From the NCBI RefSeq assembly GCF_024700075.1, contig NZ_JAJONE010000001.1:4797001-4861000 (forward strand): a DNA stretch of 64,000 nt, in the 5' to 3' direction. This document shows, in pieces, positions 52,875-60,101 of this stretch. The stretch is from Hymenobacter sp. J193. GTDB lineage: Bacteria; Bacteroidota; Bacteroidia; Cytophagales; Hymenobacteraceae. The stretch's first letter is position 1; each line of letters opens with the position of its first letter. Both the position numbers and the translations under genes were made by a program. The notes under the pieces were generated by a model. The model was not told the origin of the DNA and searched no databases. It was given only the letters and a program-made list of their open reading frames with translations.

Positions 52875-53282
52875 ATGGGCATTACCCTCAAACAAGCACA
52901 GCAGGCAGTACAGGCCGCGCACGAAAAAGCGCTGGAAATGGGCGTTAAAATGAACATAGCCGTGGTGGACTCCGGTGCCAACCTCGTAGCCTTTATCCGT
53001 ATGGACGACGCCTGGCTCGGTTCCCTCGATATTTCCATCAAAAAGGCCAAAACTGCCCGCTTCTTCGATATGCCCACCGGCGACCTGGGGCAGGCCTCGC
53101 AGCCCGGTGGCTCGCTCTATAACATCGAGCATTCCAATGGTGGCCTTATCACCTTCCCCGGCGGCATCCCGCTCAAAAACAAGGAAGGGCAGATTTTCGG
53201 TGCCATTGGCGTGTCGGGCAGCACTGTGGAAGACGACCACGCCGTAGCTCAGGCAGGCGTGCAGGCCCTGGCAAACGAATAG
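52875..53282 (+). CDS. GlcG/HbpS-family heme-binding-like protein (DUF336)
   Basis: The protein has 135 aa. It fits the family with '[20 protein letters not shown]', '[20 protein letters not shown]', '[20 protein letters not shown]' and '[18 protein letters not shown]'. Family members form small alpha/beta oligomers; HbpS degrades or binds heme, while others have unknown ligands. There is no signal peptide, so it is cytoplasmic. The 612-nt stretch after it (53283-53894) has no credible gene and contains two repeats listed separately. Confidence 0.92.
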
Positions 53283-53470
53283 TACTCCGGGCTAAGCTTT
53301 CAATATCCGCGCTGACTACTACCACCCCGGCCAGCCACCGTTAAAAATGATCCATGCCATCAGCCGTTAGCTTTTCGGTGAGATGTGGCTGCTGAGTTGT
53401 TAAAGGCGGCTGGCCGGGGTTTCGGCTGCGGTTGACGGAACTGTGGTAAATGACGCCGAAACAGCTCCGG

Positions 53471-53576
53471 TCCGGCGGGCGTAGCCCGTCGGGCCGGTTG
53501 AAGGTAGCTGACACCCGCCCGATGACGAAACAACAACGGCACGCAGAAACCGGCCCGACGGCTTGCAGCCGCCGGA
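53471..53576. repeat. REP-like imperfect inverted repeat
   Basis: Arms 53471-53499 and 53548-53576 are 29-nt inverted copies with a few mismatches, containing TCCGGCGG and CGTCGGGCCGGTT, separated by 48 nt. It abuts the 21-bp array. Confidence 0.75.
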
Positions 53577-53578
53577 CT

Positions 53579-53830
53579 GGAACGCCCCTTGTCAACCAGA
53601 TAGCAGCTGTTGTGAAGCGGTTAGCAGCCATTGTGAGCAGGGGTCGGAAGGCATTGTACAGGTTAACGCCTATTGTGAAGCGGTCAGATGCCATTGTGAG
53701 CAGGTCAGCACACATTGTCACCCCCGTCAAGGCGCAATGTCACCAAGACAGCGGGCTATGTGACTCGTTCATAACGCATTGCTACCCGGCCACCAGCCTT
53801 TGCCACCCCGGCAGCAGTCAATGACATAAC
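53579..53830. repeat. 12-copy degenerate 21-bp tandem array with phased ATTGTGA cores
   Basis: Twelve consecutive units of exactly 21 nt fill 53579-53830 with no indels. Each has a core near its centre of the form WTTGTSA: TTGTCA, GTTGTGA, ATTGTGA, ATTGTAC, ATTGTGA, ATTGTGA, ATTGTCA, AATGTCA, TATGTGA, then more diverged forms. Units 2 and 5 share 'GCCATTGTGAGCAGG' and units 1 and 4 share 'TTGTGAAGCGG'. Twenty-one nt is two DNA helical turns and seven codons. All three plus-strand frames are open for long stretches, but I see no sign of a real protein. Confidence 0.85.
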
Positions 53831-53894
53831 GTTAGCATTTACTGCTACTTTCAACGTGTAACTTGTCGCTTTGCTTCAAAACGCTTCCACCGCT

Positions 53895-54338
53895 ATGAAA
53901 TCATCATTAGTTCCCACCCCTGCCAAACGCGGCTGCCTATGGTATGCTGGCGCAGTTGCCGTTGGGGCATTTGGGTTAGTAGTACTGCTTGTAGTACTGT
54001 TTATTGTGGGGCTTATAAAAGCGTCTAACGATCTTGGTTCGCATTCCACCGTCGTTTCTATTCACGACCAAACTTATCTGGAAGCCGTGACCACAAATCA
54101 CGGCGAGGGGTTTCTAGACGGGTACAACTGGTTGGAAGTGTACTACGTTCGTGATGGCTGGTTTTGGAATGACAGAGTACGTGTGTATAATTTCCCTAAT
54201 GTCAGTGACTCTGAAATTGGGTTTAACCGCAGCATAGACCAGAACGGGCAGGTACAGATTCAAATAAAGCAGGGAGGAATCGGTGACAGCCTAGTGCTGG
54301 CCACCTTTGTACCACCTGCGTCTTTTCCTAAGGAGTAG
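53895..54338 (+). CDS. hypothetical single-pass membrane protein
   Basis: The protein has 147 aa from ATG 53895 (MKSSLVPTPAKRGCLWYAG). One strong membrane helix (about 20-42, 'GAFGLVVLLVVLFIVGLI') is followed by a beta-rich domain with 'VVSIHDQTYLEAVTTNHGEG' and 'VYYVRDGWFWNDRVRVYNFP'. Base composition is lower in GC than its neighbours. No family is recognised. It is probably an inner-membrane protein with its domain outside. Confidence 0.65.
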   Translation: MKSSLVPTPAKRGCLWYAGAVAVGAFGLVVLLVVLFIVGLIKASNDLGSHSTVVSIHDQTYLEAVTTNHGEGFLDGYNWLEVYYVRDGWFWNDRVRVYNFPNVSDSEIGFNRSIDQNGQVQIQIKQGGIGDSLVLATFVPPASFPKE

Positions 54339-54459: not shown

Positions 54460-57400
54460 ATGTCAGTAGCTCCCGCAGCTCCCTATAAGCCGAAAAACCA
54501 CATTCGCATCGTAACGGCCGCCGCTTTGTTCGACGGTCACGACGCGGCCATCAACATCATGCGCCGCATCATCCAGAGCAGCGGCGCCGAGGTCATCCAC
54601 CTGGGCCACAACCGCTCGGTGCAGGAAATTGTGGACTGCGCCATCCAGGAAGATGCCCAGGCCATTGCCATTACCTCCTACCAGGGCGGCCACAACGAGT
54701 ACTTCAAGTACATGTTCGACCTGCTCAAGGAGCGCGGGGCGGGCCACATCCGCCTCTTCGGCGGCGGCGGCGGCGTGATTCTGCCCACCGAAATCGAAGA
54801 CCTGCACTCCTACGGCATCGAGCAGATCTACTCGCCCGACGCCGGCCGCGCCATGGGCCTGCAGGGCATGATCAACGACTTGCTCCAGCGCTGCGACTTC
54901 CCCACGGGCCAGAACCTGAACGGCGAGGTCAACCACGTCAAAGAAAAAGACGCCCGCAGCATCGGCCGCCTCATCTCCGCCGCCGAAAACTTCCCCGACG
55001 AATTCGCCCGCGTAAAAGACCAGCTGATTTCCGACTTCCAGCAGGCCGAAGGCGGCAACGACCAGCGCCTCGACTCTCCCGCTACCTCGGCCACTAAAAC
55101 CCCCATCCTAGGCATCACCGGCACCGGCGGCGCCGGCAAGTCGAGCCTGGTGGATGAGCTGGTGCGCCGCTTCCTGATGGACTTTCCCGAGAAGACCATT
55201 GCCATCATCTCCGTCGACCCCAGCAAGCGGAAGACGGGCGGGGCCCTCCTGGGCGACCGGATCCGGATGAACTCCATCAACAGCCCCCGCGTGTACATGC
55301 GCAGCCTGGCTACCCGTCAGAGCAACCTGGCGTTGAGCAAGTACGTGCAGGACGCCGTCGACGTGGTCCGCGCCGCCGAGTTCGACCTGATCATCCTCGA
55401 AACCTCCGGCATCGGCCAGTCCGACACCGAAATCATCGAGCACTCCGACGCCAGCCTCTACGTGATGACGCCCGAGTACGGGGCGGCCACCCAGCTGGAG
55501 AAAATCGACATGCTCGACTTCGCCGACGTCATTGCCCTCAACAAGTTCGACAAGCGCGGCGCCCTCGACGCCCTGCGCGACGTGCGCAAGCAGTACCAGC
55601 GCAACCACGGCCACTGGGACCAGCCCCTGGACTCCATGCCCGTGTTCGGCACCATTGCCTCGCAGTTCAACGACCCCGGCATGAACCGCCTCTACCGCGC
55701 CGTGCTGGCCACGGTGGAAGCCAAAACCGGCGTGCCCTTCGCATCCCAGCTCGAAACCAGCCAGGAAAACTCGGAGAAGATTTACATCATTCCGCCCCAC
55801 CGCACCCGTTACCTTTCCGAAATAGCCGAAACCAACCGCCAATATGACCAGTGGGTTCAAAAACAAGCTGACGTTGCTCAGCAGCTTTATGGAATCAAGC
55901 AAGCCATCGGAGCCGTCCAAAGTGTCGGAAACGCCGCTGCAGGACCTGGCAGCGGGCACAGCGGCCACCAATCCGAATCCGGAAGTCTCGTGGCCGGCCT
56001 GGAGAGGACCTTCGAGGAGGTCAAACTCCGGCTGGACGGGCAGAACTGGAAACTCCTGGAAACCTGGCCGCAAAAAGTAGCTGCCTACAAGGCTCCGGAG
56101 TTCGTGTTCAAGGTGCGCGACAAGGAAATCCGCATCCAGACCCACACCACCAGCCTGAGTAACCAGCAGATTCCCAAAGTCAGCCTGCCGCGCTACACCG
56201 CCTGGGGTGACTTGCTGCGCTGGCAGCTCCAGGAAAACGTGCCCGGTGAGTTTCCCTACACCGCCGGCGTGTTCCCGTTCAAGCGCGAGGGCGAAGACCC
56301 GACCCGCATGTTTGCCGGCGAAGGCGGCCCCGAGCGCACCAACCGCCGCTTCCACTACGTGAGCATGGGCCTGCCCGCCAAACGCCTGAGCACGGCCTTC
56401 GACTCGGTGACGCTCTACGGCGAAGACCCTGACCACCGCCCCGACATCTACGGCAAGATCGGCAACGCTGGGGTGAGCATCTGCTGCCTCGACGACGCCA
56501 AGAAGCTCTACTCGGGCTTCAACCTGGCCAACCCCAGCACCTCGGTGTCGATGACCATCAACGGCCCCGCTGCTACTCTGGCCGCCTTCTTCATGAACGC
56601 CGCCATCGACCAGCAGTGTGAGCTGTATATAAAGGAGAACGGCCTGGAAGCTGAAGTCGAAGCTAAGATCAACCAGATCTACGCCGATAAGGGTCTCAAC
56701 CGCCCCCGTTACCAGGGCGAGCTGCCCCAGGGCAACGACGGCCTGGGTTTGATGCTGCTCGGCGTCACCGGCGACCAGGTGCTGCCCGCCGACGTGTACG
56801 AAACCATCAAAACCCGCACGCTCAGCCAGGTGCGCGGCACCGTGCAGGCCGATATTCTTAAGGAAGACCAGGCCCAGAACACCTGCATCTTCTCCACCGA
56901 ATTCGCCCTGCGCCTCATGGGCGATGTGCAGGAGTACTTTATCAAGGAGAAGGTCCGCAACTTCTACTCGGTGTCGATTTCCGGCTACCACATTGCCGAA
57001 GCAGGAGCTAACCCCCTCACCCAGCTGGCCCTCACGCTCTCCAACGGCTTCACCTTCGTGGAGTACTACGTGAGCCGGGGCATGAGCGTGAACGACTTCG
57101 CGCCCAACCTCTCCTTCTTCTTCTCCAACGGCATCGACCCCGAGTACGCCGTTATCGGCCGGGTGGCGCGCCGCATCTGGGCCAAGGCCATGAAGCTTAA
57201 GTACGGCGCCGACTCCCGGAGCCAGATGCTCAAGTACCACATCCAGACCAGCGGCCGGAGCCTGCACGCCCAGGAAATCGACTTCAACGATATCCGCACC
57301 ACGTTGCAGGCCCTCTACGCCATCTACGACAACTGCAACTCCCTGCACACCAACGCCTACGATGAGGCCATTACCACCCCCACCGAGGAATCGGTGCGCC

Positions 57401-57933
57401 GGGCCATGGCCATTCAGCTCATCATCAACCGGGAGCTGGGGCTGGCCAAAAATGAGAACCCACTGCAAGGCTCCTTTATCATCGAGGAGCTCACCGACCT
57501 GGTGGAAGAGGCGGTATTGCTGGAGTTTGACCGTATCACCGAGCGCGGCGGCGTGCTGGGCGCCATGGAAACCATGTACCAGCGCGGCAAGATTCAGGAG
57601 GAAAGCATGCACTACGAGATGCTCAAGCACACGGGCGAGTATCCCATCATCGGCGTGAATACCTTCCTCTCCTCCAAAGGCTCACCCACGGTGGTGCCCG
57701 CCGAGGTTATCCGCGCCACCGACGAGGAAAAGCAGTACCAGATTGAGATGCTCAACATCCTGCACACCCGCAACGCCGACCAGACCGCCAGCCGCCTCAA
57801 GCAGCTCCAGCAAGTCGCCATTGCCAACGGCAACCTCTTCGCCGAGCTGATGGAAACGGTGAAGTTCTGCTCCCTGGGGCAGATTACGAATGCGTTGTTC
57901 GAGGTTGGGGGGCAGTACCGCCGGAATATGTAG
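54460..57933 (+). CDS. icmF: fused isobutyryl-CoA mutase/GTPase (B12-dependent)
   Basis: The protein has 1157 aa in the IcmF order. An N-terminal B12-binding domain (about 14-145) has '[20 protein letters not shown]' and '[15 protein letters not shown]'. A MeaI-like G-protein chaperone domain (about 215-430) has Walker A 'GTGGAGKSS' (K227), '[20 protein letters not shown]' and NKFD. A linker follows with a low-complexity part '[19 protein letters not shown]'. The mutase barrel occupies the rest. Gln806 in '[11 protein letters not shown]' stands where methylmalonyl-CoA mutases have Arg, and Phe605/607 in 'GVFPFK' lies in the substrate-pocket region, which favours isobutyryl-type substrates. 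It isomerises branched acyl-CoA with adenosylcobalamin. Confidence 0.92.
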
Positions 57934-58536: not shown

Positions 58537-58728
58537 ACTGGCGCGAGTTTAGGCGCAGCCGTAACTCGTGACCTGCCTTGATGTGGAGGTTGTACCTCCA
58601 TTGCCGCAACGCGGCACATCCGAACCGCGCCGCCTAGGCTCATCCAAGCGGCGTTGTCGTTCTACCGGGGAGGCACAGCCTCCCGGCATGGCTGGTCACG
58701 AGTTACGCTGCGCTAAACTCGCGCCAGT
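58537..58728. repeat. left palindromic REP-like unit
   Basis: Outer arms 58537-58573 and 58694-58728 are inverted copies with two single-base gaps. Inside are smaller hairpins (GGAGGT/ACCTCC near 58582-58599; GGGAGGC/GCCTCCC near 58668-58685). Confidence 0.85.
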
Positions 58729-58744
58729 CGTGCATCTTGAAGCT

Positions 58745-59293
58745 ATGAGCGAGAAATATAAGATCCGGGATTCGCAGCAGCTGTATTTTGTCAGCTTTGC
58801 TACCGTCAATTGGATAGACGTTTTCACGCGGCGGGTATACAACGATATTTTCGTGGATAGCCTGCGCTATTGCCAACAGCACAAAGGGCTGGAGATTTAC
58901 GCCTGGTGCCTGATGACCAACCACGCCCACCTCATTATCAGCAGTGAAACCGCCAACCTCTCGGCTACTCTGCGCGATTTGAAGCGTCACACGTCCAAAT
59001 CTATCCTCAAGGCTATTGAGGAAAATGGTCAGGAAAGCCGGCGGGAGTGGATGCTGTGGCTATTTGAGCGGGCCGGACAGCGCAATGCCCACAACGAGCA
59101 CTACCAGTTCTGGCAACAGGACAGCCACCCGATAGAACTGCACTCCAACGAACTACGCCGCCAGCGCCTTGACTACCTGCACCGCAACCCGGTGGTAGCT
59201 GGCTTCGTGGATGTGCCCGAAGATTTTCTGTATAGCAGTGCCCGCGACTATGCCGGCCAGCCCGGCATGATTGATATTCTATTGATAGAGTAG
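58745..59293 (+). CDS. REP-associated tyrosine transposase (RAYT, Y1_Tnp)
   Basis: The protein has 182 aa from ATG 58745 (MSEKYKIRDSQQLYF). The HUH motif is 'CLMTNHAHLIIS' (His-hydrophobic-His reading as HAH), and the catalytic Tyr is probably in 'RRQRLDYLHRNPVVAGFV'. 'YFVSFATVNWIDVFTR' at the N-terminus and 'PEDFLYSSARDYAG' at the C-terminus are standard. RAYTs nick and move REP palindromes. The inverted units on each side are the likely substrates in cis, and other palindromes in the window are possible ones in trans. Confidence 0.94.
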   Translation: MSEKYKIRDSQQLYFVSFATVNWIDVFTRRVYNDIFVDSLRYCQQHKGLEIYAWCLMTNHAHLIISSETANLSATLRDLKRHTSKSILKAIEENGQESRREWMLWLFERAGQRNAHNEHYQFWQQDSHPIELHSNELRRQRLDYLHRNPVVAGFVDVPEDFLYSSARDYAGQPGMIDILLIE

Positions 59294-59504: not shown

Positions 59505-60101
59505 CTACTTCAACTCTTCACTGCCGCCTTTCCCACCCGTCGTCACCAGCTTGCGGGCTTGCGCATAGCCTTCGTACAGCGGGCGGTTGAGCAGCTTGAA
59601 GGCTTTCATGTCGGCATCGAGCTGGCGCACTTCGTCCATGAGGGCGGCGAGCAGGTCTTCGAGGGCGGCCCCGGCTACTACCCGCTCGTTGATGGTGTGG
59701 CGGGTGGCGGGCTGGGCTTGCTGGAAGGCCGTGAGGGCGTCGCGCAGGGGCTTGAGGGCCGTGGCAGTGAGGCCCTGCTTGGAAAGCAGGGGCGCTACGT
59801 CGGCGCGGGCGGCGCTGTCGAGGATGGCCTTCACTACCCCCGCAAAGGCCAGGGGGCGGAGCTTGCGCAGCTGCTTGCTGCTGAGCGTGGCCGAGGCCAG
59901 CAGGTCGTTGTCGGGCAGGCGGGTGGCAATGCGGCTGAGCGGGCCCAGCAGAGCCGGCAGCAGCTCCAGCAACTCATTTTTTGCCTTTTTGGCGGCGTCC
60001 GTCAGGTTTTGGGTGCGCTTGGCGGTGCCGCCCCGCGCCCCGGCCACCTGGGCGTAGCGGGTGGTAACTTCAGTGGCCTGGGCGGCGGCGGATTCGCTCA
60101 C
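59505..60101 (-). CDS. hypothetical helical protein
   Basis: The protein has 198 aa. It is predicted to be all helical, with basic N-terminal half ('ARGGTAKRTQNLTDAAKKAK'), 'ELLELLPALLGPLSRIATRL' and 'EDLLAALMDEVRQLDADMKAF', and a Gly/Lys tail. No signal peptide or membrane helix. A 50-nt part (59608-59657) is 84 per cent identical to a fragment at 61274-61323, so this family has been duplicated here. Function is unknown. Confidence 0.7.
   Translation of the reverse strand: MSESAAAQATEVTTRYAQVAGARGGTAKRTQNLTDAAKKAKNELLELLPALLGPLSRIATRLPDNDLLASATLSSKQLRKLRPLAFAGVVKAILDSAARADVAPLLSKQGLTATALKPLRDALTAFQQAQPATRHTINERVVAGAALEDLLAALMDEVRQLDADMKAFKLLNRPLYEGYAQARKLVTTGGKGGSEELK

Follow-up and report, generated by a model that had tools for sequence, protein, structure and literature searches.

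Arrays of 21-bp units in Hymenobacter and a helical protein family as their candidate binder

The array and its neighbourhood

The window, that is, the whole stretch of 64,000 nucleotides that was analysed, contains an array of short direct repeats located between an HbpS-like gene and a small gene, after which follows a conserved neighbour that we take from its sequence to be icmF-like. The features of this locus are collected in Table 1.

Table 1. Features at and near the array (positions in the window).
Feature	Position	Strand	Remark
HbpS-like gene, upstream neighbour of the array	52875..53282	+	
REP-like inverted repeat, abutting the array and overlapping its first bases	53466..53581	.	
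Solo array of 13 units of ~21 bp, no family gene adjoining	53579..53852	+	invariant TG core
Small gene, function unknown, in the variable slot that separates the array from icmF	53895..54338	+	no Pfam/NCBIfam match
Fused B12-dependent mutase with MeaB-type GTPase domain, icmF-like; conserved array neighbour	54460..57933	+	
Helical-protein family member, N-terminally shorter, without adjoining array	59505..60101	-	

The cores of the first twelve units start at 53589, 53610, 53631, 53653, 53673, 53694, 53715, 53737, 53758, 53779, 53800, and 53821, and the steps from core to core are 21, 21, 22, 20, 21, 21, 22, 21, 21, 21, and 21 bp. A thirteenth unit, which retains the TG, occupies 53832-53852. 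The family consensus of this type of unit is TCAGCAGCCATTGTCACCCGG. The initial annotation had described the phasing as exactly 21 nt with no indel; a period far above chance is indeed present, but the phasing is not exact, since two steps of 22 bp and one of 20 bp occur. In a consensus-free scan of 1518 stretches (mean 1.3, sd 1.1), the array is the lag-21 maximum of the window, with z 8.2, and when periods from 15 to 40 are compared in the array, 21 alone is prominent (z 7.5; runner-up 2.5).

Two other features recognized at the outset are confirmed. The abutting inverted repeat has arms at 53466-53499 and 53548-53581 that are 82% complementary, and the gene placed ~65 nt after the array starts with an ATG at 53895, at this distance from the array end then quoted. 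A REP-like inverted repeat also precedes the orthologous arrays of genomes G054 and G124, although not that of G136. Inspected by eye, array ends vary among loci, and the window array has the inverted repeat at one side. At 58568-59293, near the REP-like repeats of the window, there is a gene for a Y1 transposase (PF01797) of the REP-associated type. Unlike the family member at 59505-60101, the family copies that eight other genomes have at 4-8 kb from icmF do carry an array. As for the assembly, contig C1 of genome G000 has the same region at its start and its end (~49 kb and ~4850 kb; offset ~4801402); this is apparently an unresolved circular overlap, and it may be one cause of the raised contamination figure.

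Constraint on the units and linkage to a gene family

What is kept in these units, and what is free to vary? Over 561 units from 46 arrays, position 12 is T in 98% and position 13 is G in 99%. When 12 orthologous pairs are compared, this TG is changed in 3 of 246 cases, compared to 425 of 2227 at the other positions, which agrees with the constrained core at helical spacing proposed initially. The TG step (positions 12-13) is kept in 97% of the units and a CA step (positions 2-3) in 73%, the two being 10 and 11 bp apart, a spacing observed post hoc. With regard to the period, the count of 879 steps of 21 bp among 900 (both strands counted) is biased, because the chain parser penalizes any other step; the floating-period test of 86 genes described below is unbiased.

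The arrays look non-coding. An open frame is absent in 8 of 46 arrays, including that of the window, and taking the best frame, 32 of 46 are open; for the gene-linked arrays, 22 of 67 have no open frame, and 17 of 67 are open in frame with the gene. Stops in some frames are slightly fewer than in shuffled columns (19 vs 25.7 and 14 vs 22.7), and the substitutions in the 12 orthologous pairs have no codon rhythm. The repeat peptide, suggested at the outset as the alternative, therefore finds no support: no single frame stays open, the substitutions lack this rhythm, and the 22- and 20-bp steps of the array break the reading frame.

Arrays with the same period stand upstream of most tested genes of one protein family. 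The subfamily to which the window array relates, cD3, is a ~230-aa all-helical protein (model pLDDT 86, pTM 0.51), and the median net charge of the family is +4. The cD3 protein has no Pfam match above cut-off and no PDB match at E<=0.001, and Pfam and PDB comparison recognized no DNA-binding fold in the family protein. Relatives of cD3, close and distant, occur in 28 of 120 Hymenobacter genomes, 21 of which also have arrays found by model, while a wider profile search gives family matches in 52 of the 120, with up to nine per genome. Among the 120 of 131 family members listed, those with a named organism are from Hymenobacter.

The linkage was assessed by floating the period from 12 to 40 upstream of 86 family genes, partly orthologs, consisting of 30 loci from a first search and 56 hand-picked from a longer list. 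The best period is 21, with z of at least 6, in 81 of 86; none of the 86 attains z 6 at any other period, and five have no clear array. Looking at the individual sets, the consensus-free test finds an upstream 21-bp array at 29 of the first 30 loci; z is at least 8.4 in 37 of 40 further genes and 6.0 in one more, and at least 10.0 in 15 of 16 others. The maximum in 442 control stretches is z 5.3, and none of the regions downstream of the 56 genes has an array (0/56, none above 4.6). The unit sequence varies thoroughly between subfamilies, whereas the 21-bp period is constant. Two family copies in G000 (C1:1348187-1348877 and C1:4274896-4275558) look broken, with a frame change and an internal stop, and retain strong upstream arrays, z 17.9 each.

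Distribution, types and placement of the arrays

BLAST found related arrays in four other genomes of the same genus among 99 searched (best E 7.7e-26), and a sequence model spanning four units found them in 23 of 120 Hymenobacter genomes, so that the search of related genomes advised initially did return similar arrays. With the model built on 46 arrays, 29 of 204 genomes of the bacterial family are positive, namely, 27 Hymenobacter and two in one sister genus; in a sample of the order, arrays occur in 12 of 390 genomes and are confined to Hymenobacter and this sister genus, and in a sample of the phylum they occur in 4 of 395, two of these being weak. Most arrays come from models of the cD3 type, so that solo arrays of other types would escape these searches. 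The bearers include Hymenobacter pini, lucidus, rigui, psychrotolerans, perfusus, aerophilus, duratus, swuensis, and chitinivorans.

G000 contains a second solo array at C1:4287957-4288109 (L030); its type is a different one (GCAATAGGCATTGTCAGAGGC-like), it is located between the 3' ends of genes that we take to be GH15-like and OtsAB-like, and it has an ortholog in G114. ATTGTCA-like 21-bp arrays were also noted outside Hymenobacter, at L150 (a Chitinophagaceae MAG), L160, L167, L183 (an Odoribacteraceae MAG from termite gut), and L187 (an Ignavibacteria MAG). Their likeness may be due to chance, perhaps with the exception of L150, because the search pattern fixes the core.

Judged by sequence similarity, the window array belongs with those of the cD3 subfamily, and it stands alone upstream of icmF. 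Its consensus resembles the cD3 arrays of other species at 0.82 to 0.76 (best eight), while the best value with 53 other family arrays is 0.49, for a null maximum of 0.54. Within its own genome, the similarity is 0.46 to the cD3 array, which is within the null, and 0.21-0.33 to three other family arrays. The closest type is the cD3 array for all 39 solo arrays tested, most of which were found with models trained on cD3. The cD3 array of the same genome is closer to the solo arrays than expected, with a mean rank of 5.4 out of 24 (34 arrays; 0/2000 permutations), although it is 12th or worse for six of the 34: the icmF arrays of G000, G005, and G015, together with the arrays G122, G106a, and G106b. 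The consensus of icmF arrays and that of cD3 arrays covary in 17 genomes (partial Mantel r 0.59, 0/2000), with a correction for kinship through IcmF identity that is weak, as this identity and the similarity of the arrays are hardly correlated (-0.21, 0.12). In 4 of 22 arrays, the strand with the best score is flipped with respect to cD3, and therefore DNA is favoured over RNA. At the icmF and cD3 loci of G114 and G034, the arrays occupy the positions seen in relatives, but their consensus is a different one and their best score is on the other strand, as may result from replacement, inversion, or drift.

Gene context was counted for 40 of the 46 arrays, leaving out five that overlap a called gene and one at a contig end. 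Codirectional, convergent, and divergent gaps hold 24, 15, and 1 arrays, compared to 47, 12, and 28 of 87 background gaps at the same loci, and the upstream neighbour reads toward the array, in the TTGTCA sense, in 34 of 40. Because divergent gaps are so seldom used, a promoter-proximal regulator fits poorly for arrays away from their gene.

Three array loci border variable gene slots. At a locus that we name mfd-like, the array is ~60-90 bp ahead of cD3 and borders AT-rich genes that vary by species: the adjacent 1 kb is at most 16% shared in 65 of 66 species pairs (53% in the remaining one), whereas on the other side coverage is 88-100% in the 45 pairs formed by the ten species with cD3 retained at this locus. 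At icmF, the next 0.5 kb shares nothing in 38 of 45 pairs, and the stretch beyond it is shared in 44 of 45. The GC content of the stretches bordering the array is below that of the locus in 12/12 species (mfd-like) and 10/10 (icmF). In five species, parA and parB, of which ParB is confirmed by NCBIfam and ParA through hits below cut-off only, are split by an island of ~7-15 kb, with an array on the parA side in 5/5 and on the parB side in 2/5. Variable cargo is not universal, since both flanks are conserved at four other array loci.

The parA-parB regions are L291, L292, L293, L294, and L295-L296, from G044, G100, G113, G122, and G106, respectively, and the island genes are presumably glycoside hydrolases and a LacI-type regulator; the names mfd, GH43, LacI, and immunity-like are likewise our assumptions from the sequence. 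In G006, the cargo that separates the mfd-like gene from the array includes an ATPase gene whose OLD-like TOPRIM match is weak (L034 6002-7693). The mfd-like slot may hold defence-type genes.

Interpretation and comparison with known systems

The fixed period, the free sequence, the constrained core, the orientation flips, and the linkage to one gene point to phased protein-binding DNA. The helical protein is our candidate for the binder, given that the arrays are linked to its gene and the consensus follows between loci. The reading that we prefer, with about an even chance of being right, is that the array is a non-coding platform of sites on one face of the DNA, bound cooperatively by the family protein, with or without a partner, as a filament or wrap. 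The window array is a member of a Hymenobacter class with a fixed 21-bp period. Its phased sites would be occupied cooperatively by the protein of the family (for the window, the cD3 type), alone or with the partner, and the bound protein would form a nucleoprotein filament or wrap. When the array is linked to a gene, the bound protein would regulate the gene that encodes it, and solo arrays, as in the window, would be extra binding sites at gene 3' ends and at the borders of variable slots. Several observations count against this reading: the net charge of the family is low, no DNA-binding fold was recognized, the dyad symmetry of the units is non-significant, the window array is unlike the family arrays of its own genome, six of 34 solo arrays rank the cD3 array of their genome low, and neither five of the 86 family genes nor the shortened copy in the window has a clear array. 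A bolder version, which is less likely than not, is a new class of two-part chromosomal element with a constant period and a free sequence: the protein would polymerize on the array, protein specificity and array sequence would co-evolve rapidly, each genome would contain several private pairs, and solo arrays would anchor or bridge beside mobile slots.

Other explanations deserve attention. The arrays could be neutral minisatellites for the most part, descended from an ancestral 21-bp repeat that spread with the gene family, with unequal exchange among units and a period that is inherited and not selected. Whole units are gained or lost (among 76 array gaps, 12 have a length that is a multiple of 21), some arrays, such as G100a, have near-identical adjacent units, and the arrays are lineage-restricted. 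Such an origin is hard to reconcile with the rarity of changes in the TG core and with the lack of any alternative period upstream of the 86 genes. Gaps are also not those of a neutral repeat: the closest trio has 0 in 756 array columns vs 23 in 1372 flank columns, and those that are not multiples of 21 are fewer per substitution in arrays than in flanks (0.082 vs 0.235, from 18 pairs that draw on some genomes repeatedly). Moreover, units can be aligned one-to-one across species, which argues against fast homogenization and against the recent slippage that the initial annotation had named as fatal to its reading. Neutral minisatellites are, on the whole, an unlikely explanation, if one to be reckoned with. 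A bendable platform for a general factor (gyrase, or an HU/IHF-like protein), as a functional counterpart of REP/BIME whose flexible CA/TG steps, spaced by roughly half a unit, favour wrapping at places of transcription end, is fairly improbable. The CA and TG steps, the preference for convergent over divergent gaps, and the REP-like inverted repeat beside the window array are in its favour, but the CA/TG spacing was spotted after the fact, the consensus is quite different in the arrays of other subfamilies, and a general factor leaves both the linkage to one family and the consensus following between loci unexplained.

Might the arrays instead be hot spots of recombination or insertion, serving the uptake and exchange of accessory genes? 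The abrupt loss of sharing on the array side at the mfd-like and icmF loci, the lower GC of the cargo, and the island between parA and parB suggest so. Nevertheless, we regard a hot spot as distinctly improbable: the flanks of four other loci are conserved on both sides, no integrase or direct-repeat target signature was noticed in passing, and long intergenic gaps draw repeats and insertions alike. Least probable, and very much so, is an element that acts as RNA or peptide, be it a transcript (leader, decoy, or Rho site) or a heptad-repeat peptide. It would account for a unit of seven codons, for the neighbours transcribed toward the array, and for the slight shortage of stops; it is at odds with the closed frames, the missing codon rhythm, the orientation flips, and folding z-scores that range from -2.8 to +2.5 in 20 tests with no consistent sign, and a flexible RNA is not expected to keep a strict phase.

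If the phased platform is real, dozens of very different unit sequences with one constant period, each next to a copy of the same protein family, would amount to a natural collection of protein-DNA pairs, in which the evolution of binding specificity could be observed and helical phasing alone could be tested as a selected trait. It would also open a way into a multi-copy Hymenobacter family that is currently annotated as hypothetical and, should the arrays mark or drive the turnover of their neighbours, help to explain where small accessory genes settle.

How do the arrays compare with elements already described? REP/BIME are extragenic palindromic hairpins that occur at the 3' ends of genes and seldom between divergent promoters. 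The Hymenobacter arrays share the extragenic location, the 3' ends, and the near absence from divergent gaps, but they consist of direct phased units whose dyad symmetry is non-significant (p 0.15), and their RNA folding is inconsistent. Plasmid iterons are phased direct repeats of ~20 bp beside the gene of the binding protein, as are these arrays with respect to the gene of their candidate binder; against this assignment, the family protein has no Rep-type domain, blastn of the window array against plasmid and phage collections gave no match, and two family proteins had no plasmid match. A CRISPR array was rejected, as the 21-bp units abut directly without spacers and no cas gene was seen by eye beside the window array. 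So was a chromosomal parS/ParB site: the arrays are devoid of the canonical palindromic parS, and the exact TGTTTCACGTGGAACA site occurs once per genome, away from the arrays, in 5/5 genomes.

Among Bacteroidota, BrickBuilt of Porphyromonas gingivalis is a minisatellite/MITE with 23-nt spacer-less tandem units in intergenic regions (PMC4596501). Both elements are intergenic and species-limited, have many copies, and use units of about two helical turns. BrickBuilt has a leader and a tail with inverted-repeat ends, and its abstract mentions no linked protein family (PMC4596501), whereas the Hymenobacter arrays have diverged units of 21 bp and are linked to a gene family; a MITE with a 23-nt unit was discarded in view of the period upstream of the family genes. 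The TAACTGA direct repeats of Beggiatoaceae and some Bacteroidetes, as far as the cited account goes, are also intergenic, patchily distributed, and thought to be regulatory, yet they repeat one heptamer, mostly just upstream of start codons, and not diverged 21-bp units (PMC4679880).

The plasmid centromeres parC/ParR and tubC/TubR come closer. In the part of the account used here, a repeat array stands upstream of the operon encoding its binding protein, which covers the repeats by wrapping or coating and acts as a repressor at its own promoter; parC repeats are ~10 bp, the binder is of the RHH or winged-helix type, the ParM or TubZ motor is in the operon, and the system is plasmid-borne (PMC5016525). 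The Hymenobacter direct repeats, placed upstream of 81 of 86 family genes, would match this arrangement if the family protein is the binder. The Hymenobacter arrays differ in having 21-bp units, a chromosomal location, many copies, and solo arrays, including that of the window with no family gene adjoining, and their protein is modelled as all-helical, with a fold that was not recognized. In an unsystematic reading of the flanks, no ParM/TubZ-type motor gene was seen beside the arrays. The arrays are not filed under parC/tubC because unit length and location differ. The 21-bp array element is apparently previously undescribed, and its nearest working analogy would be a centromere-like array next to the gene for the protein that binds it (PMC5016525).
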